DNA from: a bacterium
Lineage (GTDB): Bacteria; Electryoneota; Electryoneia; Electryoneales; Electryoneaceae
Reading direction: 5' to 3'
NCBI GenBank assembly: GCA_020444265.1
Contig: JAHLLH010000002.1
Span: 62,001-126,000 of the forward strand
DNA length: 64,000 bases
The position numbers and the translations under genes were made by a program. This document shows, one piece after another, positions 3,347 through 38,637 of the stretch. Position 1 is the first letter of the stretch. Every line of letters begins with the position of its first letter. The notes beneath the pieces are model-generated. The model saw only the letters and a list, made by a program, of their open reading frames with translations. It ran no database searches and was not told where the DNA came from.

Positions 3347-3449
3347 CTTTTCCTGGAGGCACTTCCAGCACTTTCCCGTCTGTCGGGCACAGGCCTATTT
3401 TGTGCGAACGGCAGCCTGCTGGGCTGTCCTTCGACCAACAGGGATCATC

Positions 3450-5696
3450 ATGAACCGGCACCCCGGCTTGATTCTACTCGCGCTTTCACTCTTTGCCCTG
3501 TCCCTGCTTGTCGGCAGCACTCCCGCTTGTGCACAACCCACAACCACCGCCCCAACCAACACCCTTTCTGCCGAATCTGATTACAACATGACCATTCTGC
3601 CTGACCCCCAGGGTCCGCCATCACGTCCCAGGGTCGGGCTTGTGTTGAGTGGTGGTGGGGCAAAAGGATTGGCGCACATTGGTGTGCTGAAGGTGATCGA
3701 GGAAGCAGGTCTCGATATTGATGTGGTCACCGGCACCAGCATGGGCAGTATCATCGGCGGGCTCTATGCCATCGGGTATACCTCCGAGGAGATTGATTCG
3801 CTGGTCGTCTCGATCGACTGGGCCGATTTTTTTGCGGAGACGGTCAATCGTGAACACCTGTCGATGGAACAGAAGCTCTACGATGCCCGTTACCTGGCAT
3901 CGCTGCCATTGCGGGACGGAACCGTCTCCCTGCCCAACGGCTTGATTCCCGGTCAGAATTTCTCCGCCCTGTTGAACCGTTTAACCCTCTTTGTCCACGA
4001 TACGCCCGACTTCCACAACCTGCCTCGTCCCTTCGCCTGCATCGCGACGGACCTGGTGACCGGGGTGGCGGTGGTGCTGGATCACGGCAACCTTTCCGAA
4101 GCGATCCGTGCAAGCATGGCGATTCCCAGCATTTTTACGCCGGTCCCCTACCAGGGCTCCCTGCTGGTAGATGGCGGCATGGTGCGGAACTTCCCTGCCC
4201 AGGATGCGCTTGACCTCGGTGCGGACATCCTGGTCGGGGTCAATGTCGGCGTCCCGCTGAACAGCAGGGAAAAGCTGACCGACATTATCTCCATCGTCAA
4301 CCAGTCCCTCTCCTTCATTGGTGCAGAATCGGATTCAATTCAACGCACCCTGGTGGATATTCTGATCGAACCGCCCGTGGCGGAGTTTTCGATCACTGAC
4401 TTTTACGACGCAAAATCGATCATCCAGGTGGGCGAAGAGACAGCACGTACCTACCTGCCGCAGCTTCGCGCCCTCGCCGATTCGCTGAACCGTCTCGGCC
4501 CGGAGTCGCCTCGCCCCCTGCCGCCTCGCATTGATTCTGTCTATGTCGAGAAGGTCGAGATTCATGGGTTGAATCATGTGACCCAACGTCAGGTGATGGC
4601 TGATTTTGCGATTGATGCGCCCCGGTGGGTGACAACCGAGGAACTCGAGGCTGGGGTGGAACGAGTCTTCTCCTCCCAGTTCTTCGAGCGAGTCGGCTAC
4701 AATTTGCAGGCGACACAGCGAGGGACGATTGTTACCCTGAATGTGCTCGAGAAACATTCCGACTTTTTCCGCTTCGGCTTCCGCTATGACAGCTTTGACA
4801 AGGCTGGTGTGCTGCTGAACCTGACTTCGCACAACCTGATCTGGAACAGCACCATGGCCACCCTTGACCTGGTGCTGGGCGAATACACCGAGGCGGAAGC
4901 GGCATGGTTTTTCCATACGGGGTATCGTCCACGGATCGGGATGCGTCTCCACTCGATTTACCAGCAGGCGCAATTCCTGATTACCCCGCCCTCGGTCCTA
5001 ACCCCCGTTGAGATGAAGCTTCGTCTGAACCGTAATGAATTTCTCGCGGGAACTATCTTTTCCACCACGTCTGCAATCGGCGGCGGCGTTCGTCACTACT
5101 GGTCGGTCACCAGTCCGCGCTTTTCTGTACCGGGACTCAAACGGACCGAATCTTCCCACCCCGCACTGTTTGCTTTACTTTGGGAAGACAGTTTTGACCG
5201 GGCGGATTTTGCGACCGATGGTTCCTGGATCTATGCCGATTTTGAAATCGCGGATCCTGCGATTGGTGGTGATGTCGCCTATCGTCGTGGCGAGCTCTCC
5301 CTTGAGAATCGGACCGAGAGTCGATCCTGGCTAACCCTGATTGGGAGGTTGCGTCTCGGCTCGTCCACCGGTACCCCACCCTTGCACCGCCTCTTTTTCA
5401 ACGAGCCTTTCGATGCGGTGATTGGGGCCGAGCCGGGTCAGTTGGCCGGGAAGGCAATCCAGGTTGTGGGTGGCGGGCTGCAATTCCAGCCCTGGCGCAA
5501 ACGGTTTCTGGTGGTCGAGGGGTCGCTTGGCAACAGCTTTGCGAGCTGGAACACCAACCTTTCCTTCGATCAGTACGAGTGGGGGGTGGGGATCAGCGCG
5601 GGTGCCTCGACAGTGGTCGGCCCGATCAGCGCCTCGCTTTCAACCGGCAGCCTGCACGATGCCTTGTTTGCTGTCAATGTCGGGTTCCATTTCTGA
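3450..5696 (+). CDS. outer-membrane patatin-like phospholipase (PlpD/type Vd-like)
   Basis: This is a 748-residue exported lipase-like protein. A signal peptide (about residues 1-29, ending ACAQ) is followed by a patatin domain. That domain has the oxyanion-hole glycine loop SGGGAKG (about 67-73), the nucleophile motif GTSMG with Ser97, and the DGG motif with Asp241, forming the Ser-Asp dyad. A POTRA-like segment follows (VEKVEIHGLNHVTQRQVM), then a C-terminal beta-barrel of the BamA/Omp85 family ending in an aromatic residue (GFHF). This order matches type Vd secretion, in which the lipase is carried by its own barrel. ATG 3450 is chosen because the signal peptide begins there; a start at 3402 would add 16 residues in front of it. 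The natural substrate is unknown. Confidence 0.88.
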   Translation: MNRHPGLILLALSLFALSLLVGSTPACAQPTTTAPTNTLSAESDYNMTILPDPQGPPSRPRVGLVLSGGGAKGLAHIGVLKVIEEAGLDIDVVTGTSMGSIIGGLYAIGYTSEEIDSLVVSIDWADFFAETVNREHLSMEQKLYDARYLASLPLRDGTVSLPNGLIPGQNFSALLNRLTLFVHDTPDFHNLPRPFACIATDLVTGVAVVLDHGNLSEAIRASMAIPSIFTPVPYQGSLLVDGGMVRNFPAQDALDLGADILVGVNVGVPLNSREKLTDIISIVNQSLSFIGAESDSIQRTLVDILIEPPVAEFSITDFYDAKSIIQVGEETARTYLPQLRALADSLNRLGPESPRPLPPRIDSVYVEKVEIHGLNHVTQRQVMADFAIDAPRWVTTEELEAGVERVFSSQFFERVGYNLQATQRGTIVTLNVLEKHSDFFRFGFRYDSFDKAGVLLNLTSHNLIWNSTMATLDLVLGEYTEAEAAWFFHTGYRPRIGMRLHSIYQQAQFLITPPSVLTPVEMKLRLNRNEFLAGTIFSTTSAIGGGVRHYWSVTSPRFSVPGLKRTESSHPALFALLWEDSFDRADFATDGSWIYADFEIADPAIGGDVAYRRGELSLENRTESRSWLTLIGRLRLGSSTGTPPLHRLFFNEPFDAVIGAEPGQLAGKAIQVVGGGLQFQPWRKRFLVVEGSLGNSFASWNTNLSFDQYEWGVGISAGASTVVGPISASLSTGSLHDALFAVNVGFHF

Positions 5697-5742
5697 CCCT
5701 TGGTTGCACCACCGAACAGATGAGACAGCGGTATCCTTCCCC

Positions 5743-5771
5743 TTGTTCCCGTTGCCTGCATCCTGTACTTT
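5743..5771 (+). promoter_or_regulatory. candidate promoter for panD-pepA
   Basis: TTGTTC and TACTTT are separated by 17 bases, about 88 bases before the panD start. The 160-base gap after the patatin gene shows nothing else. Confidence 0.3.
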
Positions 5772-5858
5772 TCCAAGCACGCTTTGCCTCACTCCTCCAA
5801 AGGTCTTCCCGAGTGGATTCAGGGGTTGGGCAGCATGAACCACGACCCGGGAACCACC

Positions 5859-6209
5859 ATGCTCCGACGCTTTCTCCGAGCGAAAATACATCGCGCCACC
5901 GTAACCCAGACTGAACTGGATTACGTTGGCAGCCTCACCATCGACTCCGACCTGCTGAAACGTGCCGGTATCCTGCCGAACGAGCAGGTGGAGGTGTACA
6001 ACATCACACGCGGCACACGGTTTACCACCTATGCGATTGTTGGTGAAGCTGGTACAGGCGAGATGTGTGTCAACGGTGCGGCGGCCCACCTTGCCGAAGT
6101 GGGCGACCTGATTATTGTTGTTACCTACTGTGATCTCGCAGAAGATGAGATAGAAAGCCACGAACCGGTGGTTCTTGTTGTGGACGATGAAAACAAACCT
6201 GTTTCCTGA
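5859..6209 (+). CDS. panD: aspartate 1-decarboxylase
   Basis: The enzyme makes beta-alanine from L-aspartate for pantothenate and coenzyme A synthesis. At 116 residues it has the family's standard length. It shows the conserved opening LRRFLRAKIHRATVT, the self-cleavage site YVGS (Gly-Ser, giving the pyruvoyl cofactor), TRG and NGAAAHL. The start at 5859 matches the family. An in-frame ATG at 5835 has a better spaced purine-rich sequence (AGGGG) and cannot be excluded. The gene is followed 23 bases later by pepA. Confidence 0.94.
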   Translation: MLRRFLRAKIHRATVTQTELDYVGSLTIDSDLLKRAGILPNEQVEVYNITRGTRFTTYAIVGEAGTGEMCVNGAAAHLAEVGDLIIVVTYCDLAEDEIESHEPVVLVVDDENKPVS

Positions 6210-6232
6210 TTGATCCTCTAGGAGATCTTCTC

Positions 6233-7735
6233 GTGAAACTCCAGCTGCACGATGTCGCACCCCAGGAAGTTGAAGCCCAGTTATTCGTCGCCGGTCTCTT
6301 CGAAGGCGAAAAAGCGGTGGAAGGCGGCATGGGCCGTCTCGATGCCAGCCTCGCCAACCGGATGGAACTTGCCCGTAAGCAGGACGATTTTACCGGAAAG
6401 TCTGGCCAGTTTTTGACCCTCTATGGAGGAGATAATGGGCCTCGACATATCCTGGTGGTCGGTCTCGGAAAGCGAGACGAGTGGACTCCGGAAAAACTGC
6501 GTCGCGCGTTCGGCACCGCCGGTAAACAGGCACGAGCCAAACGATGGACGGATGTCGTCCTCATGCCGCCACTGAAAGGCTTTGCTCGGCCCGATGAGGA
6601 ACGTGTGACGGTTGCCGCGGTCGAGGGGTTTGTTCTGGCGATGTACCGTTACGTGCGTCAAAGCCGAAACCTCGAGAAACTGCCGACCCTGGAGCTGCTT
6701 CGGGTCACCCCCGGCGAATCGGAAGGTGTTGCGGGTTTGAAGGTGGGCCTGAAACAGGCAAAAGCGAACCTGGACGGCACCCTGTTTGCCCGTGACCTCG
6801 CCGCGATGCCCGGGATGGATCTTTACCCTGAATCCTATGCCAAGATCGCGAAGGGGCTGGAAAGCAAAAACATCAAAGTTGAAATCTTCGACCGCAAAAA
6901 ACTCGAGAAACTGGGCATGGGCGCCCTGCTGGCTGTCGGCCAGGGGTCTGCGCACCCACCGGTGCTGATTCACCTGACTTATGATCCGGGCAACCTGCCA
7001 AAAAAGGCGAAGACCTTCTGCCTTGTTGGCAAGGGTATCACCTTCGATTCGGGTGGCCTAGACCTCAAGCCCGCCGCCGGGATGCGTGACATGAAAATCG
7101 ACATGTCCGGCTCCGCTGCGGTTATGGGGGTCTTCAAGGCACTCGATACCATGAAGCCTAAATGCCGTATCGAGGGCTTCATCCCCGCCGCTGAGAATAT
7201 GACCGGCGGCAATGCTTATCGTCCCGGCGATGTCTTGACCTCCTACCGTGGCCTCACCATCGAGATAGATAACACCGATGCCGAAGGTCGTCTTGCCCTT
7301 GCCGATGCGCTGGCGTACGCCGCGGACACCGTGAAGCCCGACACAATGGTCGACCTCGCAACATTGACCGGCGCCTGCTGGATTGCTTTGGGTAACCATG
7401 CGACCGGCATGATGGGGACCGACGAGAAGCTTGTCGAGATGCTGACCGCTGCGGGTGACGAGTCCGGGGAACGTGTCTGGCGTCTGCCGCTCTGGGAAGA
7501 GTACTCGGAACAGATCAGCAGCGAAATCGCCGATTTGAAGAACACAGGAGGCCGTCCCGGTGGTGCGAGCACAGCAGGTGCTTTCCTGAAGGAATTTGTC
7601 GGTGACACACCCTGGATTCACCTCGACATCGCAGGAACCGCCTCTGAGGTGCCCGTCAGCTACGTGCCTCACAAAGAGCTGCCGACTGGTGTTGGTGTTC
7701 GTCTGATTCTGGAGACGCTGAGACGGTGGGTGTGA
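6233..7735 (+). CDS. pepA: leucyl aminopeptidase, M17 family
   Basis: A 500-residue cytosolic two-metal aminopeptidase. The catalytic C-terminal domain has VGKGITFDSGGLDLKP, the metal-binding DMKIDMSGSAAV and NTDAEGRLALADALAYA, and ATLTGAC, all diagnostic of M17. The N-terminal 170 residues form the usual variable macrodomain-like part. The start is GTG at 6233 with AGGAG eight bases upstream. The last ten bases overlap the start of the EamA transporter gene, so the two are probably translated together. Confidence 0.95.
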   Translation: MKLQLHDVAPQEVEAQLFVAGLFEGEKAVEGGMGRLDASLANRMELARKQDDFTGKSGQFLTLYGGDNGPRHILVVGLGKRDEWTPEKLRRAFGTAGKQARAKRWTDVVLMPPLKGFARPDEERVTVAAVEGFVLAMYRYVRQSRNLEKLPTLELLRVTPGESEGVAGLKVGLKQAKANLDGTLFARDLAAMPGMDLYPESYAKIAKGLESKNIKVEIFDRKKLEKLGMGALLAVGQGSAHPPVLIHLTYDPGNLPKKAKTFCLVGKGITFDSGGLDLKPAAGMRDMKIDMSGSAAVMGVFKALDTMKPKCRIEGFIPAAENMTGGNAYRPGDVLTSYRGLTIEIDNTDAEGRLALADALAYAADTVKPDTMVDLATLTGACWIALGNHATGMMGTDEKLVEMLTAAGDESGERVWRLPLWEEYSEQISSEIADLKNTGGRPGGASTAGAFLKEFVGDTPWIHLDIAGTASEVPVSYVPHKELPTGVGVRLILETLRRWV

Positions 7736-30791: not shown

Positions 30792-32228
30792 TCAGGCTGG
30801 AAGATTACCTTCGATCTTCATTTGCTCTTTTCGCTTTGCGGTCAAGTCAGGCAGCATCATGACCAGGGCTGTAAGGAACCAGAAAGGCTCCATGATACGG
30901 ACAATGATAAAGGTATTGGCGCCAATACCGTGTATGATCATCCCCGCAAACCCGCCCAGGTAACCAACAATAAAAGCATACTCCGCCGGGAAAAGCTTTG
31001 GGTCCACCAGTTTGAGCTTCTTCACCCCCTCGGCGAAAATCGTCCACAAAAGCCAGCCGAAGGCAAATAAACCCACCACGCCTGTCTCCACCAGCACACG
31101 GAAATACTGGGCATCCTTGAATCCGGCGCCCGTCACTCCCCACCCGAAAATCGGTTTCTGAGTCCACTGTTTGATGGTTTGTGTCCAGGAGATGATACGC
31201 GCCGAGGTGGAAGGATCAAGGGCGGTGTCCCCCACTTCAACCACATCCGTACGGAGCTGATTTTCCTGGCCGAACGTATAGCTGACACGTTCGTAAACCG
31301 ACGCGGGAATAACGAAAGGCAGGACCATCAGTGCCAGGATCATGGCAATAATCAGTTGACGGCGCTGTCTGCTATAGAAGATGACCACAAGGACGGCGGG
31401 GAACAGCGCAATCCAGGACGACCGCGACAGCGTATAGGCAAATGGAATCAACATCACCAACAGAAGGATGAGGTAGCCGGCGCGTTGACGCATACTCTTC
31501 AAGGTCGGTAGAATCGCGATCACCAGGGACATCATGATGACCAGGTAGCCACCAAGCGTGTTCGCTTCACCGCCCTCGCCCTCAAAGGGCGCCGAGACAC
31601 GAACCCCGGATGGAATCTGCGAAACGGCATACAGCGAGACAAGGAAAGCAGTGATCAGGAACATGCGGCGATACCGCCACAAGTTGGTCAGGTCCTGGAT
31701 ATGTGACGAGACCATAAGAAAGATCAGGAAGTATTGGAAGTACTTGATGTTGTACAGCAAACCAACCAGCGGCGAAACGTTACCGTTGAAGATCCCGAGG
31801 AAGGTTGCAAAAAAACTTATGCCAAGATAGGTGAAGATGGGGCGGTTCAGCGGTGTGCGGATAAAAAGACCCAAGTCCTTGTTCACAGCCGTTTTCACCA
31901 GCCAGGAGAGGGTGATCAAACCGAGCAGAAGGTCATCGAAACGGAGGACAACGTCACGCGAAGTGTCGGTTCCGCCCCCACCGCCCCCACCAATGGCAAA
32001 CTCCGGAGAAAGCAGCATGGAGAGAATGAGGATCGAGAGGGCGAAGTCAGTATTGATGAAAGCGAAAATGAAAATTGCAATCGCAACCACCGAGTAGAAC
32101 GCGAGGCTTTCGTCATAGCCAGCAAGGCTGGAGATGGCCAACGAGGCGAGGGTCACGACAATCATGGTCGCGACCACCGCGAGACGTTGATTCCCGGTAT
32201 TCAGCCCGAGAGAGCCTCGAAAAAGCAT
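30792..32228 (-). CDS. O-antigen ligase/polymerase family membrane protein (Wzy_C)
   Basis: A 478-residue protein with about eleven hydrophobic segments. It has the Wzy_C-type large periplasmic loop, seen as SRSSWIALFPAVLVV before it and KPIFGWGVTGAGFKDAQY followed by VLVETGVVGLFAF after it. Such proteins polymerise or ligate lipid-linked polysaccharide units at the periplasmic face. A run of seven glycines (EFAIGGGGGGGTD) sits in an early loop. It is the last gene of the minus-strand block, ten bases after the tyrosine autokinase-like gene. No glycosyltransferases or flippase accompany it. Confidence 0.82.
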   Translation of the reverse strand: MLFRGSLGLNTGNQRLAVVATMIVVTLASLAISSLAGYDESLAFYSVVAIAIFIFAFINTDFALSILILSMLLSPEFAIGGGGGGGTDTSRDVVLRFDDLLLGLITLSWLVKTAVNKDLGLFIRTPLNRPIFTYLGISFFATFLGIFNGNVSPLVGLLYNIKYFQYFLIFLMVSSHIQDLTNLWRYRRMFLITAFLVSLYAVSQIPSGVRVSAPFEGEGGEANTLGGYLVIMMSLVIAILPTLKSMRQRAGYLILLLVMLIPFAYTLSRSSWIALFPAVLVVIFYSRQRRQLIIAMILALMVLPFVIPASVYERVSYTFGQENQLRTDVVEVGDTALDPSTSARIISWTQTIKQWTQKPIFGWGVTGAGFKDAQYFRVLVETGVVGLFAFGWLLWTIFAEGVKKLKLVDPKLFPAEYAFIVGYLGGFAGMIIHGIGANTFIIVRIMEPFWFLTALVMMLPDLTAKRKEQMKIEGNLPA

Positions 32229-32237
32229 CGCTCTCGT

Positions 32238-34547
32238 CTACGCTTTCTCTTTTTCTTTCGGCCCGAGCAGGGTGTCAACTTTAAGTTTGCCCATCAGACG
32301 TTCCCACCCGGATTTACGTTTCGGCTGCTGTTCCACCACCTCGGTATCGCCGGACGCACCATAGTACTTGCCGTAGTAATAGTGCGAGCTGGAGAAGCCG
32401 ATCAGTTCTGAACGAAGATCGTTGAGCACAACACCCATGACCGTTGCGCCTACCGATTCAATCTGCACCTTTGCGCGACGCAGCGCGGCGCGTGGCACCT
32501 TGCCGGTACGGTAGACTAACAGGGTCGCATCGGTTCGTTTCGCCAGAATCGCCGCATCGGTCACCGGCAGCACCGGCGGGGCATCGAAAAGGATGATGTC
32601 AAACTCTTCGCGTGCCTCGTCAATGAACTGCTTCATCCGCTCGGAAACCAGCATTTCTGCCGGGTTCGGCGGCACACCGCCACTGGTGATGATGTGAAGG
32701 TTCTCCATACCCGGGGTCATCAAGGTCGAGGACATGCCCATATCGCCCATGATGATATCGGTCACCGTTCGAATGCAGTCGCGCCATTCGACACGTCCCA
32801 GTACGATATCGACCACACCCGGGGCCTGATCGATCCCGAAAACCTTGTAGATGCTCGGGCGACGCAGGTTGCAACCGACCAGCAGGATTTTCACTCCGCC
32901 CTGCGCCATCGTAATCGCGAGGTTCACAAGGGTGGTCGACTTTCCCTCCTGCAAGGAGGCAGACGTGGTGGTAATCGTCTTGACTGGCGAATCAATCGCA
33001 CGGAATTGCAAGGCAGTACGCAGGGCGCGATAGCCTTCCGCCACAGGATCTTTCGGGGCAAAGTGGGTGACAAGCCGTGCGGACGCTTCGAGGTTGGGGT
33101 TGTTTTCCAACCCCGGGTTTCTTCGTAACAAGTGTTCCGTGACCGACTCGATGTCGATGCTGGGGATTACCCCAAGCACCGGCACCTGGAGGAATTCTTC
33201 AACATCTTCGATTGTCCCGATGGAGGTATCAAACGTTTCGAAGAGGAAGGCGAGTACCAGGCCAAGTGTCAGCCCAATCACAAAGCCTACACTGATCATG
33301 CGGCTCATATTGATGTTGATCGGAGCCTGATTAAGCATGGCGGGACGGACCACAGTGACCTCGTCCGCCTGGTCCGCTTCACGGATCAATGCTTCCTGGT
33401 ATTTAACTGTCAGGTCGGTGTACTGTGCTTCACGCAGGGCAACTTCACGTTCCAGCTGAGCATAGCGTCGTTGCGCTTCGGGTACCTTGGCAAATTCGGC
33501 GTCGCCTTCGGCAATCAGCCTGTCGAGATTCTTCAGCTCGCGTTTCTTGGCGTCCAGCATATCTATCGCTTCTTCAGCGATCTGGCTGAGCAATGCCTGA
33601 ATGTCACCTTCAAGCTGGGTAATGCGCGGATAATCAGGTTTGTATTGGGTCAACAGGTCACGTTTACGGACTTCGAGTTCGATCAGACGCTGGTTCAACA
33701 GGGCAATCGACCCGCCGTCCGCTTCTCCGGAGGAAAACCAGTCGATCAGGCGCATGGCCGAGGAGTCCATGGCTGTGTTTTTCAGTTCCCCTTCACCTGT
33801 CTTGCGCAGGTTTTGACGCTGACGAAGCTGTCCGAGCTGGGTCGTAAGCTGATCAACAACTGTCTCGAGCGACCGTTTCTTTTCACGCAGGCTCATTTGT
33901 TCTTCGAGCCTGAGGCGGAGTTGGTCGTTCAAGACGGGGAGTTTACTCTGCTGGCGAAAATCCTGCAACCGGTTTTCCGCAGCGTTCAAATTGGACTGTG
34001 CCAGCAGGAGTTGGGATTCGATAAATTCTCGTGTTTCACGATCCTGCCGGGACTTCTCCTCCAGATGAGTTTCGGTGAAGACCTGCGCCAGGGTCTGTGC
34101 AACATCGCGGGCCTCGTAGGGATCATCCGATGTCACATTGATGTCGATGATATTGGTTCGTCCACTTCGTTCCGTGGTGACCAGACCAATCATCCGGTTG
34201 ACCATCGATGCCAGTTCGGAGTTGGAACGGACATCCTCGCTGGTCAGATCACGATCGATCTTACCAAGCCGTTTCGCCACCTTTTCCATCACAGGAAAAC
34301 TGCGGATCAGCTCTTGCGCAGTGGCGATGTTATCCCATCGTGTGTAGGTCAGCCGTTGCAACAGCAACCCTGCAACCGTGTTTGTCTCTTCCACCTTGAC
34401 GCTGGAATAGGAACTGTAGAGCGGCTGACGGGAACGTCCGAAGAAATAACTGAAACCGAGCACCAGCAACGTAGCGAAGAGCACCACTTTCCAGCGTCGG
34501 CGAAGAATTCTCTGGACATCGCGCAGATTCAGGTCATACTGGGCCAT
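32238..34547 (-). CDS. Wzc-type polysaccharide co-polymerase / BY-kinase with altered Walker A'
   Basis: A 769-residue inner-membrane protein. It has a Wzz-type N-terminal half with two membrane helices (VVLFATLLVLGFSYFFG and MISVGFVIGLTLGLVLAFLF) flanking a long periplasmic coiled coil and the Pro-rich PININMS segment. The C-terminal P-loop domain has Walker A SLQEGKSTT (about residue 550) and Walker B IILFDAPP. The tail has a Tyr cluster, HYYYGKYYG. The Walker A' motif, normally LxDxDxR, reads LLVGCNLRRP, so both acidic residues are missing. The protein should set chain length and export; kinase activity is doubtful. It lies between Wza-like and Wzy-like genes. Confidence 0.9.
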   Translation of the reverse strand: MAQYDLNLRDVQRILRRRWKVVLFATLLVLGFSYFFGRSRQPLYSSYSSVKVEETNTVAGLLLQRLTYTRWDNIATAQELIRSFPVMEKVAKRLGKIDRDLTSEDVRSNSELASMVNRMIGLVTTERSGRTNIIDINVTSDDPYEARDVAQTLAQVFTETHLEEKSRQDRETREFIESQLLLAQSNLNAAENRLQDFRQQSKLPVLNDQLRLRLEEQMSLREKKRSLETVVDQLTTQLGQLRQRQNLRKTGEGELKNTAMDSSAMRLIDWFSSGEADGGSIALLNQRLIELEVRKRDLLTQYKPDYPRITQLEGDIQALLSQIAEEAIDMLDAKKRELKNLDRLIAEGDAEFAKVPEAQRRYAQLEREVALREAQYTDLTVKYQEALIREADQADEVTVVRPAMLNQAPININMSRMISVGFVIGLTLGLVLAFLFETFDTSIGTIEDVEEFLQVPVLGVIPSIDIESVTEHLLRRNPGLENNPNLEASARLVTHFAPKDPVAEGYRALRTALQFRAIDSPVKTITTTSASLQEGKSTTLVNLAITMAQGGVKILLVGCNLRRPSIYKVFGIDQAPGVVDIVLGRVEWRDCIRTVTDIIMGDMGMSSTLMTPGMENLHIITSGGVPPNPAEMLVSERMKQFIDEAREEFDIILFDAPPVLPVTDAAILAKRTDATLLVYRTGKVPRAALRRAKVQIESVGATVMGVVLNDLRSELIGFSSSHYYYGKYYGASGDTEVVEQQPKRKSGWERLMGKLKVDTLLGPKEKEKA

Positions 34548-34571: not shown

Positions 34572-35264
34572 CTATCCTCCGAGCACCGCAATCAGGATCA
34601 CGGTCTGTAGCACAAGACCGACCAGCTGGACAACACGAGAGGTTTTTTCCAACCAACTGATTGGCTTAAAGGGGATAAAAACTCGATCCCCCGGTTGCAT
34701 CAGAATGTCCTGCGTGGCCACCCCGTTCTGGAAAAAACTGCGAAGATCAAGACGGATTAATTCACCGTTGCTCCGCAGGAGAGAGACATTTTCCAAATCC
34801 GCGTTCGGCTGAATGCCACCGTTGGCTGCAATAAATTCAGAAGCGGCCATGTTCGGTACGAGAGCAAAAACCCCCTGTTGGACACATGCCCCAACCAGGA
34901 CAGCCGTCAATGACCGATAGTCGAGTACCTCAACAAACACCTGTGGTTCTTCGATATAACGCGTCAAGTCACGCTTGATGTTGCGCTGAATTTCGGATGG
35001 CGTCAACCCGGCAACCTGAACCTTCCCGAGAAGGGGTACCAATACTTTCCCCTCTTCCCCTACATCGGTTTCGATCACTTTTCCGACATCCTCGAAGGAA
35101 ACTCCCTGGTAATAGCTGATCCGAACCCTGTCGCCGATACCGATGACATATTCGATCGAACCGCCGTCGCCAGCCGTATCCTGTGCCAGGACAGTTGTAC
35201 TGCCAGCCAGAAGTAGCACCAGCAGCAGCCCGCCTCTCCACCATTTCATCGAGGTGATCCTCAT
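34572..35264 (-). CDS. polysaccharide export protein (Wza family)
   Basis: A 230-residue secreted protein with a signal peptide (WRGGLLLVLLLAGSTTVLAQ), a Poly_export domain (YVIGIGDRVRISYY, then VPLLGKVQVAGLTPSEIQ) and an SLBB domain (VLVGACVQQGVF, then PGDRVFIPF). The C-terminal helix is hydrophobic (VVQLVGLVLQTVILIAVLGG). There is no lipobox cysteine, unlike E. coli Wza. The start ATG 35264 overlaps the response-regulator stop in ATGA, indicating coupled translation; ATG 35249 is an alternative. Confidence 0.87.
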   Translation of the reverse strand: MRITSMKWWRGGLLLVLLLAGSTTVLAQDTAGDGGSIEYVIGIGDRVRISYYQGVSFEDVGKVIETDVGEEGKVLVPLLGKVQVAGLTPSEIQRNIKRDLTRYIEEPQVFVEVLDYRSLTAVLVGACVQQGVFALVPNMAASEFIAANGGIQPNADLENVSLLRSNGELIRLDLRSFFQNGVATQDILMQPGDRVFIPFKPISWLEKTSRVVQLVGLVLQTVILIAVLGG

Positions 35265-35647
35265 GTCAGGATAGATACCACTTTCGCCAGAATGCTGTGT
35301 TCCAGGTACTCGAGGTCAATCGGTTTGGTAATGAAATCAACGGCACCCTCTTTGAGCGCCTGCCGACCAATCCCTTCGTCGAGAACGCCGGTGACAACAA
35401 TGACACCAACAAACGTGTCGAACGAACGGATCCGCCTGAGCACCTCGATCCCGTCAATTCCCGGCATCTTGATGTCAAGCAGAATGACATGCGGGCGAAA
35501 GAGCTTGGTCTTGGCAAGTGCATCTTCGCCGTTCAGCGAGACCATGCATTCGTACCCACTACCGTTGAAATAATCGGCGAGAAATTCGCAGATTTCCTGT
35601 TCGTCGTCGACAATCAACAGTCGTTTTTTTACCGTTTTATTCAACAT
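35261..35647 (-). CDS. stand-alone response regulator receiver protein
   Basis: A 128-residue single receiver domain (CheY-like) with the acidic pair in LLIVDDEQE, the phospho-acceptor Asp in VILLDIKMPG, the conserved Thr in VVTG and Lys in ITKPID. It has no output domain and no kinase next to it. GGAG lies four bases before ATG 35647. Its position between the HprK-related kinase and the export genes suggests that it controls polysaccharide output by protein contact. That is inference. Confidence 0.9.
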   Translation of the reverse strand: MLNKTVKKRLLIVDDEQEICEFLADYFNGSGYECMVSLNGEDALAKTKLFRPHVILLDIKMPGIDGIEVLRRIRSFDTFVGVIVVTGVLDEGIGRQALKEGAVDFITKPIDLEYLEHSILAKVVSILT

Positions 35648-35680
35648 GATCTCCAGAATGCGACGTTTCGCCACAGCACC

Positions 35681-36574
35681 TTAGCTACCCAACAATTGCA
35701 TCGCCCGGGTCGCGGCTTCTTCGGATCCACCGGCACCATGAAGATGGATGGTCTCGCAAAGCGTGCGCAAGCTGCCAAGTGCTTGAGTTTCATCTCCCGC
35801 ATGGTACGCGAGGGACAACAGTGCGGGCAGCGCCTGAATATCGTTCAGCTTGCCCCTCAGTGCATCAAAACCAACCAGTATTGCAGCGCGCGGACGAGAG
35901 GCCCGTACCCAGGGAACAGTACCGTTGGCCAAGTGACGTTTTCCTGCCGGATCGACACGACCTGGTTTCAGGTGGTTGAAGCGGCTCCAGACATCATCCC
36001 GCGCTCGTAACCCATCCCCAAGACCCGCAATGCGAAACGATCCTTCATCACGGTAGAGAAAGAGCAGATCATCTGACACAAGCCGCGCGTGCTGCGACAA
36101 TAGCAACAATGCCGTTGTGGTCTTTCCGCTCCCCGAATGCCCTGCAATCATCACACTGTTCCCGCCCATATCCACGGCACTGGCATGCAGGGCGCGAACC
36201 CCTCGTGCCGCCAGCGGCGGAAGAAGTGTGGGCAACAACAATTGGTCAAAGATGCTCTCAGTCTGAAGCCAGGCGGACGCTGGCAGTGCTATGTGGGCCT
36301 TTCCGGCCCGTGGATGCAGTTCGATGATCGTCCCGAGATCCGGATGCCACCACAGCATGTGGTCCGGATCGCCGTACGCCTCGAGTCGACCGCGCTTGAG
36401 ACGGGGTTCTCCCTCGGGCTCGGGCATGGAGGCGTTGCCCACTGACAAGTCGACAAAAATATCCGGCTTATCGTCCTCCTCCACCGCACGAAATCCGTCC
36501 GGTACAGCAACTTCCGGGATATCGTGGTTGCGGTGCAACCCGATCCGGACCCCGGCAAATTCAAATTGGATCAC
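35681..36574 (-). CDS. HprK-related P-loop kinase
   Basis: A 297-residue protein of the HPr kinase-like family. The P-loop GHSGSGKTT sits at about 145-153 after the conserved ALHASAV strand, followed by LVSDDLLFL and a Gly-rich LGDGLRARDD. It lacks the HPr-specific C-terminal signature, as do kinases associated with PqqD and exosortase or polysaccharide loci. In paeninodin-type lasso clusters, HprK homologues phosphorylate a serine of the precursor peptide. The start is GTG 36574, with GGGAG five bases upstream; it overlaps the PqqD stop in GTGA. Confidence 0.85.
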   Translation of the reverse strand: MIQFEFAGVRIGLHRNHDIPEVAVPDGFRAVEEDDKPDIFVDLSVGNASMPEPEGEPRLKRGRLEAYGDPDHMLWWHPDLGTIIELHPRAGKAHIALPASAWLQTESIFDQLLLPTLLPPLAARGVRALHASAVDMGGNSVMIAGHSGSGKTTTALLLLSQHARLVSDDLLFLYRDEGSFRIAGLGDGLRARDDVWSRFNHLKPGRVDPAGKRHLANGTVPWVRASRPRAAILVGFDALRGKLNDIQALPALLSLAYHAGDETQALGSLRTLCETIHLHGAGGSEEAATRAMQLLGS

Positions 36575-36840
36575 TGAGACTCCCGAAGAAACCCCACAGA
36601 TACGAGCTCGCGACAAAAGGTTACAACTTCAGCCCGACACTGCTCGCGATCCGGCGCTGATTCACGGGAGGCCAGTGTATCGAGTAACACATCCAAGTTA
36701 CGCGATTCGCGCAGGTGCTTCCAAACCATGCGGCCCGTACTATTCACGATCACATAGTCTCCCGTGTCGCGCAGGAGCAACAAGCCCTCGCTCAATTCCT
36801 GCTCGACCACCTGATCGACGGGTACGGGTAATGTGTCCAT
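36571..36840 (-). CDS. PqqD-family RiPP recognition element
   Basis: An 89-residue stand-alone PqqD/RRE winged-helix protein. It has the strand pattern GLLLLRDTGDYVIVNSTGRMVWKHL followed by helices ending FCRELVSVGFL. PqqD-like domains bind the leader of ribosomally made peptides and present them to modifying enzymes. The start at 36840 has AGAGGA just upstream. An 81-base gap separates it from the nucleotidyltransferase gene and contains a T-rich tract on the coding strand that could hold an internal promoter. It overlaps the kinase gene by four bases. Confidence 0.87.
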   Translation of the reverse strand: MDTLPVPVDQVVEQELSEGLLLLRDTGDYVIVNSTGRMVWKHLRESRNLDVLLDTLASRESAPDREQCRAEVVTFCRELVSVGFLRESQ

Positions 36841-36921
36841 AGTGTCCTCTGTTTCGGTGAGGCTATCCACCAATATCGAGTGATAATACAAAAAAAACCA
36901 AAACCAATGCGACTCGCCGGG

Positions 36922-38082
36922 TTACTCGGCCCGCTTTTTCGGGCCGTCGCGAAATCCCTGTATCAGCTTTCCTGCAGCGCGAAAACGGTCCTGCAGGTAG
37001 GCTCCCCATCCGGGACGGTCCGTATCGCTGAACCAGAAAAGATCTCGTGATGGAAACATGGTGCGAAAGAGATACCCCGCTTTGTCCCGGTTGTGGTCCA
37101 TCAGGTCAAGCATCGCACTCAATCGCCTCCACCCGCCATGCTGAGTCAGATGACCATGGCCGATCACATAGGGAGACCGTCTCGCTGCGGCACGAGCCGT
37201 AGCTTTGTCCGGTATCAGGTGATCCAGGGGATGCCAACTGGTCGCATAAAGTTGACGGGCTACTTCCAGGCCAACATGTACTCCTCGCAGAATGTTCCAG
37301 TGACGGCAGAACGTTTCAAATTCACGCGGGTCTATCTGCTGTCGCCATAATTCACACCCGAGATGGACATCGTAGGACCAGGCGAGACGGAAGGTGCCGT
37401 GACGAACGCTGTGCAAGGCCGTATAAGCAAGATGTTGGATCGGTTGTAATGTCGAGAGCGCCAACCCCTCGGTCAGTTCGAGGCGGCTGGTCTGCTGGGT
37501 CAGCGCATCAGGATGAAGCCAGAAGGGTTCTGTCCGGTCGATAGGATCGCGATGCAAATCGACGATGACAGGACGGACCGGGTGACGCAACACCTGAGCA
37601 AAGCCATATTTACGGCCAATTTCGGCAGGATGGTCACGGTGAATACTTGGCTGGAGACGCCACCCCTCTCCCTGCAATGCTTCAACCGCTTTGTCAAAAT
37701 CCCCCGTGCCAAGCAGAATGTCGAGATCACCAGGATTGCGCAGCCAGGGGCGCGGATAAAGCTCTGCCAGGGCTAGTCCTTTGAAGAGAACCGGGTGGAA
37801 AGGACGGAGGATTTTCAGGGCGTCCGCTAGCGCCACGACCACCATGTTACGCCTGATTTTTGCCTGGAGAACAGTCTGATCCAGCCTTTGTAGCGGTTCG
37901 CCTGCCAGTTTGCGACGCCAAGTGTCATGCCTGCTGGCCTGCCAGGAACCGAGCGGACCGAGACCGTGGTGAACGATCAGATCGGCAATGAGAGACGGAT
38001 CGGACAGCTCGCCACGAGGAGTTCCCCCCCGAAGAAGCTGGCAGGCATCCCGCACAACCCGTTCCGCTTCAATCCGGTTCAT
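36922..38082 (-). CDS. nucleotidyltransferase-family protein (PF14907-like)
   Basis: A 386-residue protein with the family core FKGLALAELYPRPWLRNPGDLDILL: Lys-Gly, then Tyr, then Arg, then Asp-x-Asp, the metal-binding nucleotidyltransferase motif. A helical region with several conserved His/Trp positions follows (LAYTALHSVRHGTFRLAWSYDV). Members occur with PqqD and HprK-related genes in lasso-peptide and exosortase or polysaccharide loci. In lasso clusters the kinase and nucleotidyltransferase are thought to decorate the same peptide. The start overlaps the stop of the S24/S26 gene by four bases. Confidence 0.82.
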   Translation of the reverse strand: MNRIEAERVVRDACQLLRGGTPRGELSDPSLIADLIVHHGLGPLGSWQASRHDTWRRKLAGEPLQRLDQTVLQAKIRRNMVVVALADALKILRPFHPVLFKGLALAELYPRPWLRNPGDLDILLGTGDFDKAVEALQGEGWRLQPSIHRDHPAEIGRKYGFAQVLRHPVRPVIVDLHRDPIDRTEPFWLHPDALTQQTSRLELTEGLALSTLQPIQHLAYTALHSVRHGTFRLAWSYDVHLGCELWRQQIDPREFETFCRHWNILRGVHVGLEVARQLYATSWHPLDHLIPDKATARAAARRSPYVIGHGHLTQHGGWRRLSAMLDLMDHNRDKAGYLFRTMFPSRDLFWFSDTDRPGWGAYLQDRFRAAGKLIQGFRDGPKKRAE

Positions 38083-38510
38083 AGGTTTCCACGATCACGT
38101 TCGAACAACTTGTGTAACCGCCAGAGGAAGGGGGTCGTCAGCGATTGAACCTTCCCGTTGCGTTTACGAGAAATCACAACACCAAGCAATTGATCAAGCT
38201 GAAGACGATTGATATCCTGTTGACGATCTCCCCGCTCGAGCAAAGCATCGCTTTCCCAGCCGAGAAAACGATGGACGATTAATTGCCTGTCCCGGACAAA
38301 CAGAATCATCATCCCGGGCCGTAAGCTTTCCCGTTCCGATTGCTTCGTCCACGGTTGAACGAGCACAAAGTCCCCGTTGCGCAGCAGCGGTTTCATCGAG
38401 CTGCCGGAAACGGGGACCCAATAGGGACTCTGAAGTGTGCGAAGAAGTTCGGCTGGATCCGTGTTACGGTCCCCAGGGATCGGGTTCGTCGCTGAAGAGC
38501 TTGGCTTCAA
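38079..38510 (-). CDS. S24/S26 signal-peptidase-like protein without membrane anchor
   Basis: A protein of about 143 residues with the peptidase S24/S26 core: the nucleophile Ser38 in VSGSSMKPLL, NGDFVLVQP, and LIVHRFLG followed by LLERGDRQ. The second catalytic position has His-Arg and no typical Lys, suggesting a Ser-His type site as in archaeal or ER-like signal peptidases. There is no membrane helix, so it is cytoplasmic or peripheral. The start is uncertain. TTG 38510 has AAGGA four bases upstream; ATG 38543 or 38555 would overlap the peptide gene more deeply. It may trim the adjacent peptide. Confidence 0.7.
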   Translation of the reverse strand: MKPSSSATNPIPGDRNTDPAELLRTLQSPYWVPVSGSSMKPLLRNGDFVLVQPWTKQSERESLRPGMMILFVRDRQLIVHRFLGWESDALLERGDRQQDINRLQLDQLLGVVISRKRNGKVQSLTTPFLWRLHKLFERDRGNL

Positions 38511-38595
38511 TTCGTCCTTTCTCCACGACTGCGGGCGGTGCATAGCGCTCTTCATCGTTCGAATCGATCGGATGCTGTGCGGGGTCCTTCTCCAT
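38464..38595 (-). CDS. small peptide with lasso-type leader motif (candidate RiPP precursor)
   Basis: A 43-residue frame begins at ATG 38595 and ends at TAA 38464. AGGAGG lies five bases upstream, one of the best ribosome-binding sites in the window. The peptide is acidic and Pro-rich. Residues Tyr18, Pro21, Val23 and Gly27 form YAPPAVVEKG, matching the YxxPx[L/V]xxxG leader motif recognised by PqqD-like RRE domains. The tail after Gly27 ends LFSDEPDPWGP, with one Ser (Ser35) flanked by acidic residues. It lacks the Thr-x-Gly junction of a true lasso core. It starts 42 bases after gyrB and precedes the S26, nucleotidyltransferase, PqqD and HprK genes. Its expression and processing are unproven. 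Confidence 0.72.
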   Translation of the reverse strand: MEKDPAQHPIDSNDEERYAPPAVVEKGRIEAKLFSDEPDPWGP

Positions 38596-38637
38596 CCTTT
38601 CCTCCTGATCGTCCTGCTGAGGTCCTACCCTTGCAAC

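Follow-up and report, generated by a model that had tools for sequence, protein, structure and literature searches.

The stretch of DNA analysed here, the window, comprises 64,000 nucleotides (contig JAHLLH010000002.1, positions 62,001 to 126,000) of a 4.3-Mb bacterial genome (G000) that is 94% complete. Its named relatives, among them Ca. Tariuqbacter arcticus and Ca. Electryonea clarkiae, belong to the candidate phylum Electryoneota (PMC10439189). On the minus strand of the window, a gene for a peptide of 43 residues, with gyrB 42 nt upstream of its start, heads a run of nine genes that overlap or stand close together. They are listed in the order in which they follow each other, together with the signals of the first one:

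38601..38606 (-): AGGAGG ribosome-binding site, with the ATG 5 nt downstream (sequence)
38464..38595 (-): precursor peptide gene, 43 aa, MEKDPAQHPIDSNDEERYAPPAVVEKGRIEAKLFSDEPDPWGP (sequence; 8 copies in 6 genomes; purifying selection)
38515..38544 (-): putative recognition motif of the leader, Y18xxPxVxxxG27; relatives have W/YxxP (sequence, copies aligned)
38467..38499 (-): conserved core LFSDEPDPWGP, residues 33-43, with the Ser35 codon at 38491-38493 (8 copies)
38079..38555 (-): S24/S26-type Ser/His peptidase with Ser53 and His95; its frame overlaps that of the precursor, start uncertain (PF00717 over cut-off)
36922..38082 (-): PF14907 nucleotidyltransferase (109 bits, cut-off 31.2)
36571..36891 (-): PqqD-family RRE protein, predicted to bind the leader; likelier ATG near 36840 (PF05402, 39.5 bits)
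35681..36616 (-): HprK-like peptide kinase (similarity to the HprK C-terminal domain)
35261..35674 (-): single-domain response regulator (PF00072)
34572..35264 (-): Wza-type polysaccharide export protein (PF02563, 67 bits)
32238..34547 (-): Wzc-type chain-length determinant and tyrosine autokinase (TIGR01007 over cut-off)
30792..32228 (-): Wzy/O-antigen-ligase-type protein, where the gene run ends (PF04932, 52.7 bits)

The preliminary description of this DNA had picked out the short minus-strand frame, with AGGAGG 5 nt before its ATG and YxxPx[V]xxxG at residues 18-27. The sequence agrees; the motif reads Y18-A-P-P21-A-V23-V-E-K-G27. W/YxxP recognition sequences have been described for PqqD and lasso RREs (PMC12710340). 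Ser35, which had been noted as the single serine of the tail, is indeed the only one there and is unchanged in all eight copies known. No Pfam or NCBIfam model matches the 43-residue precursor, and its overlap with the following gene makes it easy to miss in annotation. A scan for promoters and terminators gave no signal exceeding that of shuffled sequences.

The gene overlaps are as previously described, and so are the neighbours: Peptidase_S24 of Pfam scores 27.6 bits (cut-off 23.3), PF14907 109 and PF05402 39.5, while the HprK-related kinase reaches 31.7 bits with Hpr_kinase_C, slightly below the cut-off of 33.3. The run does not stop at the kinase but continues with the response regulator, Wza, Wzc and Wzy, and it is uncertain where the S26 gene starts.

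The 43-residue frame is a real gene. In three other genera of the same family (G001, G003 and G004) tblastn finds it upstream of the same S26 and nucleotidyltransferase genes. A profile search of 39 genomes of the phylum adds copies that lie away from the enzymes, three in G015 and one in G010, which brings the total obtained with the peptide model to eight copies in 6 of 39 Electryoneota genomes. P21, E25, L33, S35, D36, E37, P38, P40, W41, G42 and P43 are invariant in all of them. Among the four same-family genomes, pS of the core is 0.92 and pN 0.057 in the precursor frame, third positions account for 30 of the 39 core differences, and the other two frames show the opposite pattern. The core is under very strong purifying selection, and in the precursor frame only. 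Conservation in relatives and a codon-position bias with overwhelmingly synonymous changes, which had been proposed as checks, are therefore both found.

LFSDEP[DN]P, searched in 84,980 species genomes, returned five Electryoneota relatives that were already known and none beyond; at this stringency, the precursor (type 1) thus seems restricted to Electryoneota. The six genomes that carry it are those in which an unfused pair of S26 and nucleotidyltransferase genes was seen. The probability of such a coincidence by chance would be about 3e-7 if the other 33 genomes were indeed without the pair.

Gene order is conserved, and it extends to the polysaccharide genes. PqqD and HprK lie beside Wza-Wzc-Wzy in G000 and G003; the response regulator has a matching place in G003 and adjoins Wza in G031 (L021). 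In G001 the unit is split: precursor, S26 and nucleotidyltransferase genes reside on one contig, PqqD and HprK on another, directly upstream of Wza-Wzc-Wzy and near dnaA. The kinase and the RRE protein thus remain beside the polysaccharide-export genes even where the precursor is elsewhere.

The PqqD protein of the window exceeds the Pfam cut-off and stays below every NCBIfam cut-off for PqqD. Its AlphaFold2 model (pLDDT 87) best matches the TbiB1-leader complexes 5v1u and 5v1v, with TM scores of 0.87-0.89 of the target and a Foldseek E value of 1.7e-5 for TbiB1 with bound lasso leader; the next match is another lasso B1-leader complex. It is thus closest to lasso RREs, and of the features of a lasso locus the PqqD-like B1 RRE is present. 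W/YxxP is conserved in the precursors, and the predicted PqqD fold resembles RRE-leader complexes.

The catalytic residues of the three enzymes are intact. The kinase is similar to HprK structures across the P-loop region, and His144, Lys165 and Asp182 are invariant in 16 cassette kinases; its residues agree with H-K-D-D, the set that lasso kinases are described to have (PMC9266682). By NCBIfam cut-offs it is neither ScmC nor HprK_rel_A/B. In the PF14907 transferase, Arg115, Asp119 and Asp121 are invariant in 15 sequences. A second PF14907 gene of the same genome (L001, G000:C13:108920-109660) sits between UDP-GlcNAc 2-epimerase-like and HAD-phosphatase-like genes; it is apparently glycan-related and without PqqD. 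The peptidase keeps Ser53, Met54, Pro56, His95, Arg96, Gly109 and Asp110 in 20 sequences, and its AlphaFold2 model resembles the LexA C-domain and signal peptidase.

In the relatives the S26 gene begins within the last codons of the precursor, and the two frames overlap by about 30 nt. This arrangement suggests coupled translation. ATG or GTG starts lie inside the overlap in three relatives; none is found at the homologous place in the window copy, which leaves the S26 start uncertain there. A programmed frameshift fusing precursor and peptidase was also considered. It was rejected because the stop contexts (CCG-TAA, CCC-TAA, CCA-TAA and CCC-TGA) share no slippery site and because of the three starts within the overlap.

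Several known systems resemble this locus in part. The paeninodin and pseudomycoidin clusters (PadeK, ThcoK, PsmK; PsmN; PMC9266682) share with it a PqqD-type B1/RRE, an HprK-like H-K-D-D kinase, a nucleotidyltransferase, a W/YxxP leader and a serine in the tail. The window locus differs in that genes for a lasso cyclase and a transglutaminase-like B2 protease are absent, an S26 Ser/His peptidase being present instead; its serine is internal, in an acidic and proline-containing context, and the locus is embedded in a polysaccharide-export gene run. SynChlorMet (ScmC TIGR04249, ScmD TIGR04248) is represented by G017 (L062), where PqqD, HprK-like kinase, nucleotidyltransferase, S26 peptidase and a W/YxxP precursor occur together. 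That cassette, however, has two radical SAM genes, whereas there is none between gyrB and Wzy in the window, and the window kinase scores 15.1 bits against the ScmC cut-off of 125. The HPr-rel-A and HPr-rel-B systems (TIGR04352, TIGR04353, TIGR04355) likewise combine an HprK-related kinase with a PqqD-family chaperone, yet the window kinase obtains 20.7 (TIGR04352) and 30.2 bits, with a cut-off of 200. The peptidase shares fold and Ser/His motif with the nickel superoxide dismutase maturation protease, signal peptidase I and LexA (S26/S24). It differs in its score with TIGR02754 (32.1 bits, cut-off 63.25) and in that its gene accompanies that of a RiPP-like precursor, its probable substrate.

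The cassette is not restricted to this phylum. PF14907 was found in 135 and PqqD in 172 of 386 genomes searched, and 40 loci were read from other genomes, mostly picked for having PF14907 and PqqD within a few kb. Most of the 40 contain an HprK-like kinase, many an S26-type peptidase (after improvement of the profile), and their core enzymes are a lasso cyclase, one or two radical SAM proteins, or neither. In this small sample, the PqqD/HprK/PF14907 cassette, often with the S26 peptidase, is spread over many bacterial families. ABC exporter genes occur in sister cassettes. In roughly one locus out of two, a small frame with [YW]xxPx[LIVM] lies close by, the cores ranging from Cys-rich to Pro-rich. 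Natural fusions of S26 and PF14907 (L019 6620-8245, L020 7205-8848, L091 4237-5898 and L097 1816-3243) suggest that peptidase and transferase act on one substrate. Wza or Wzc lies close to the cassette in L021, L079, L081, L088, L093, L097 and L098; in L081 and L093 no adjoining motif-bearing precursor was found.

A second set of PqqD, kinase and S26 genes is present in G000 itself (L058 8199-10081, C11:353 kb), with no nucleotidyltransferase alongside. Its kinase is ScmC over the NCBIfam cut-off (196 versus 125 bits), as are those of the sets in G001 and G010, and a profile search detected no radical SAM in the L058, L025 and L106 sets. Matching precursor-type frames, of a second type, share YxxPxxxEIxLLDESxxG(W/Y/F)S and occur in G000 on C4 (L048, L101) and in G001, G010, G006 and G026. 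The orphan frames on C4 lie at L048 8476-8607 and 8992-9162 (-) and L101 5831-5935 (+), and comprise MDDCRVPYTPPMVDEIPLLDETAVGTSGPIE, MSSVLRPYEPPSLEEILQLDESLHGWSEGEPGPP and a degraded relic that lacks a start and ends in GFSDEPNPWTP.

The orphan copies of type 1 have peculiar company. All four (three in G015, one in G010) lie 25-60 nt from genes of proteins with a type IX secretion (T9SS) tail, and these neighbours share a domain of about 380 residues (YVMxGIPVxVxDGDP...NWRVSRWD...GLGFWVVQD) that has no match in Pfam or NCBIfam. The proteins with this domain are:

L045 2921-5125 and 186-2351 (-), L046 2669-5356, L047 2849-5323, L101 2987-5800, L106 3262-5343: ~380-aa domain proteins

The domain profile was built from five precursor neighbours, and counting these again would be circular; only hits outside model building count as a test. 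Of five further strong hits of this kind, four adjoin a type-2 precursor frame. Weaker hits have no precursor frame beside them. As background, a like search of 188 kb of G000 gave only two distinct precursor-type frames, both of this kind. Genes of T9SS-tail proteins abound (G015 has at least 93, which puts chance adjacency at about 7% per precursor), so it is only the shared domain that makes the association notable. The dispersed precursors, the sister set, the polysaccharide-export genes in the run and the S26 peptidase as a regular part of the cassette go beyond the preliminary description. Absence from the literature is weak here, with subscription papers mostly outside the search, which yielded nothing on SynChlorMet, nothing on PF14907 outside lasso clusters and nothing on RiPPs with type IX-secreted proteins.

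Most likely, the product of the locus is a non-lasso RiPP-like peptide. A short conserved gene beside an RRE/PqqD protein and modifying enzymes is what a RiPP precursor looks like, and the same product had been proposed before; selection, the RRE fold, the intact residues, the absence of PF13471 and of a suitable cyclase (see below) and the invariant Ser35 support it. The PqqD-type RRE would bind the leader at W/YxxPx(V/I), as fold and motif suggest, and present the tail to the HprK-like kinase. The kinase may then phosphorylate Ser35 in LFSDEPDPWGP, the invariant and sole serine of the tail. PadeK and PsmK phosphorylate a C-terminal serine, and PsmN puts a hexose on the phosphoserine of pseudomycoidin (PMC9266682); by analogy, Ser35 is likely the site of phosphorylation and further transfer, the PF14907 transferase possibly extending the phosphate by a sugar or nucleotidyl group. 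The S26-type Ser/His peptidase would trim the leader, and the product presumably works at the cell envelope, most likely tied to the export machinery of Wza, Wzc, Wzy and the response regulator. For all of this jointly, that is a non-lasso tailored-peptide precursor bound by the RRE, modified at Ser35, trimmed by the S26 enzyme and yielding an envelope product, we estimate a probability of about 0.7. Counting against it, Ser35 is internal while the targets of PadeK and PsmK are C-terminal, the kinase and the transferase share only some 13-21% identity with homologues from cassettes outside the family, and L081 and L093 lie near Wza/Wzc without an adjoining precursor.

An ordinary lasso peptide, with cyclase and B2 protease encoded elsewhere in the genome, would fit the W/YxxP leader, the PqqD protein nearest to lasso RREs and a kinase and nucleotidyltransferase known from paeninodin and pseudomycoidin clusters. 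The preliminary description had seen neither a lasso cyclase nor a transglutaminase-like protease in the window, and this now holds for the whole 94%-complete genome: PF13471, the transglutaminase-like B2 protease, has no match, and the single PF00733 protein is an AsnB of the ordinary kind, from a glycan locus that lacks PqqD. A lasso peptide relying on a distant cyclase was rejected on these grounds. Moreover, the penultimate leader residue of the precursor is not Thr, and LFSDEPDPWGP shows no obvious Gly/Ala-to-Asp/Glu ring spacing; we consider a lasso product very improbable. A non-coding or chance frame, which the overlap with the 5' end of the S26 open frame might bring to mind, is ruled out for practical purposes by selection on the precursor frame alone; also, orphan copies exist without any S26 gene, and the S26 N-termini are unconserved across the overlap.

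The peptide could also stay inside the cell as a regulatory docking partner that binds PqqD and, by being phosphorylated or not, switches the kinase or the response regulator and Wzc, thereby tuning polysaccharide export. Its place in one run with the response regulator, Wza and Wzc speaks for this, as do the PqqD-HprK pair that stayed by Wza-Wzc in G001 after the precursor had moved, and the fact that no dedicated exporter adjoins the window precursor. ABC exporters in sister cassettes and precursor-type frames next to secreted proteins, however, point outward, the S26 peptidase implies maturation, and the diversity of Cys-rich and Pro-rich cores elsewhere is typical of products; we think this regulatory role rather improbable. 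Alternatively, the peptide might become, or act as, a prosthetic or anchoring group of large type IX-secreted proteins, the window copy being the one that stayed by the enzymes. The pairing of all orphan precursors in G015 (3/3) and G010 (1/1) with the shared domain, the four in five independent strong hits and the rarity of precursor-type frames in the background favour it. But the type-1 precursors of G000, G001, G003 and G004 are not near such proteins, the weaker domain hits have no precursor, and adjacency to one of the many T9SS-tail genes is not very rare. We regard an anchoring group as unlikely, at perhaps one chance in a handful.

The non-lasso tailored peptide thus remains our preferred reading, with a role in the envelope. 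Its polysaccharide and secreted-protein contexts are not reconciled, since the precursors of G010 and G015 adjoin secreted-protein genes and not polysaccharide genes; the T9SS pairing is a second clue to envelope function. A tentative and doubtful extension would embrace both: without ring formation or radical chemistry, the peptide would become a phosphate conjugate whose phosphoserine bears a sugar or nucleotide, and it would serve the envelope by priming, regulating or anchoring exported polysaccharide and type IX-secreted proteins. If true, this would be a RiPP class for building the cell surface and not for antibiosis.

Such kinase and nucleotidyltransferase genes are known from lasso peptides, for which they are optional decorations without a clear purpose. 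In the window they occur without cyclase or radical SAM, serve a precursor with an unchanging putative phospho-acceptor serine and are tied to polysaccharide export across genomes. This makes a testable case of what kinase and nucleotidyltransferase alone do to a peptide, and of whether the product has its place at the cell surface. Because the cassette is found in many bacterial families, if in a small sample, the answer would matter well outside Electryoneota. What these observations point to is a so far undescribed family of small cell-envelope peptides with chemical decorations.

Two of the loci from other genomes may be mentioned for their small frames. L021 of G031 (3412-7552, minus strand) is a radical-SAM version of the locus that adjoins a response regulator, Wza and Wzc, and a frame of 59 aa, MKRKYHPPEIKSEIAFEQEMLACLKVNQNCFQ..., lies between its radical SAM and S26 genes. 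In L070 (2980-3280 and 6812-7129), four near-repeated precursor frames (YxxPxLRRVGWLRDVTA..., YTKPTLTKHKPLRDITA...) are found by a locus of PqqD, radical SAM, HprK and nucleotidyltransferase genes.
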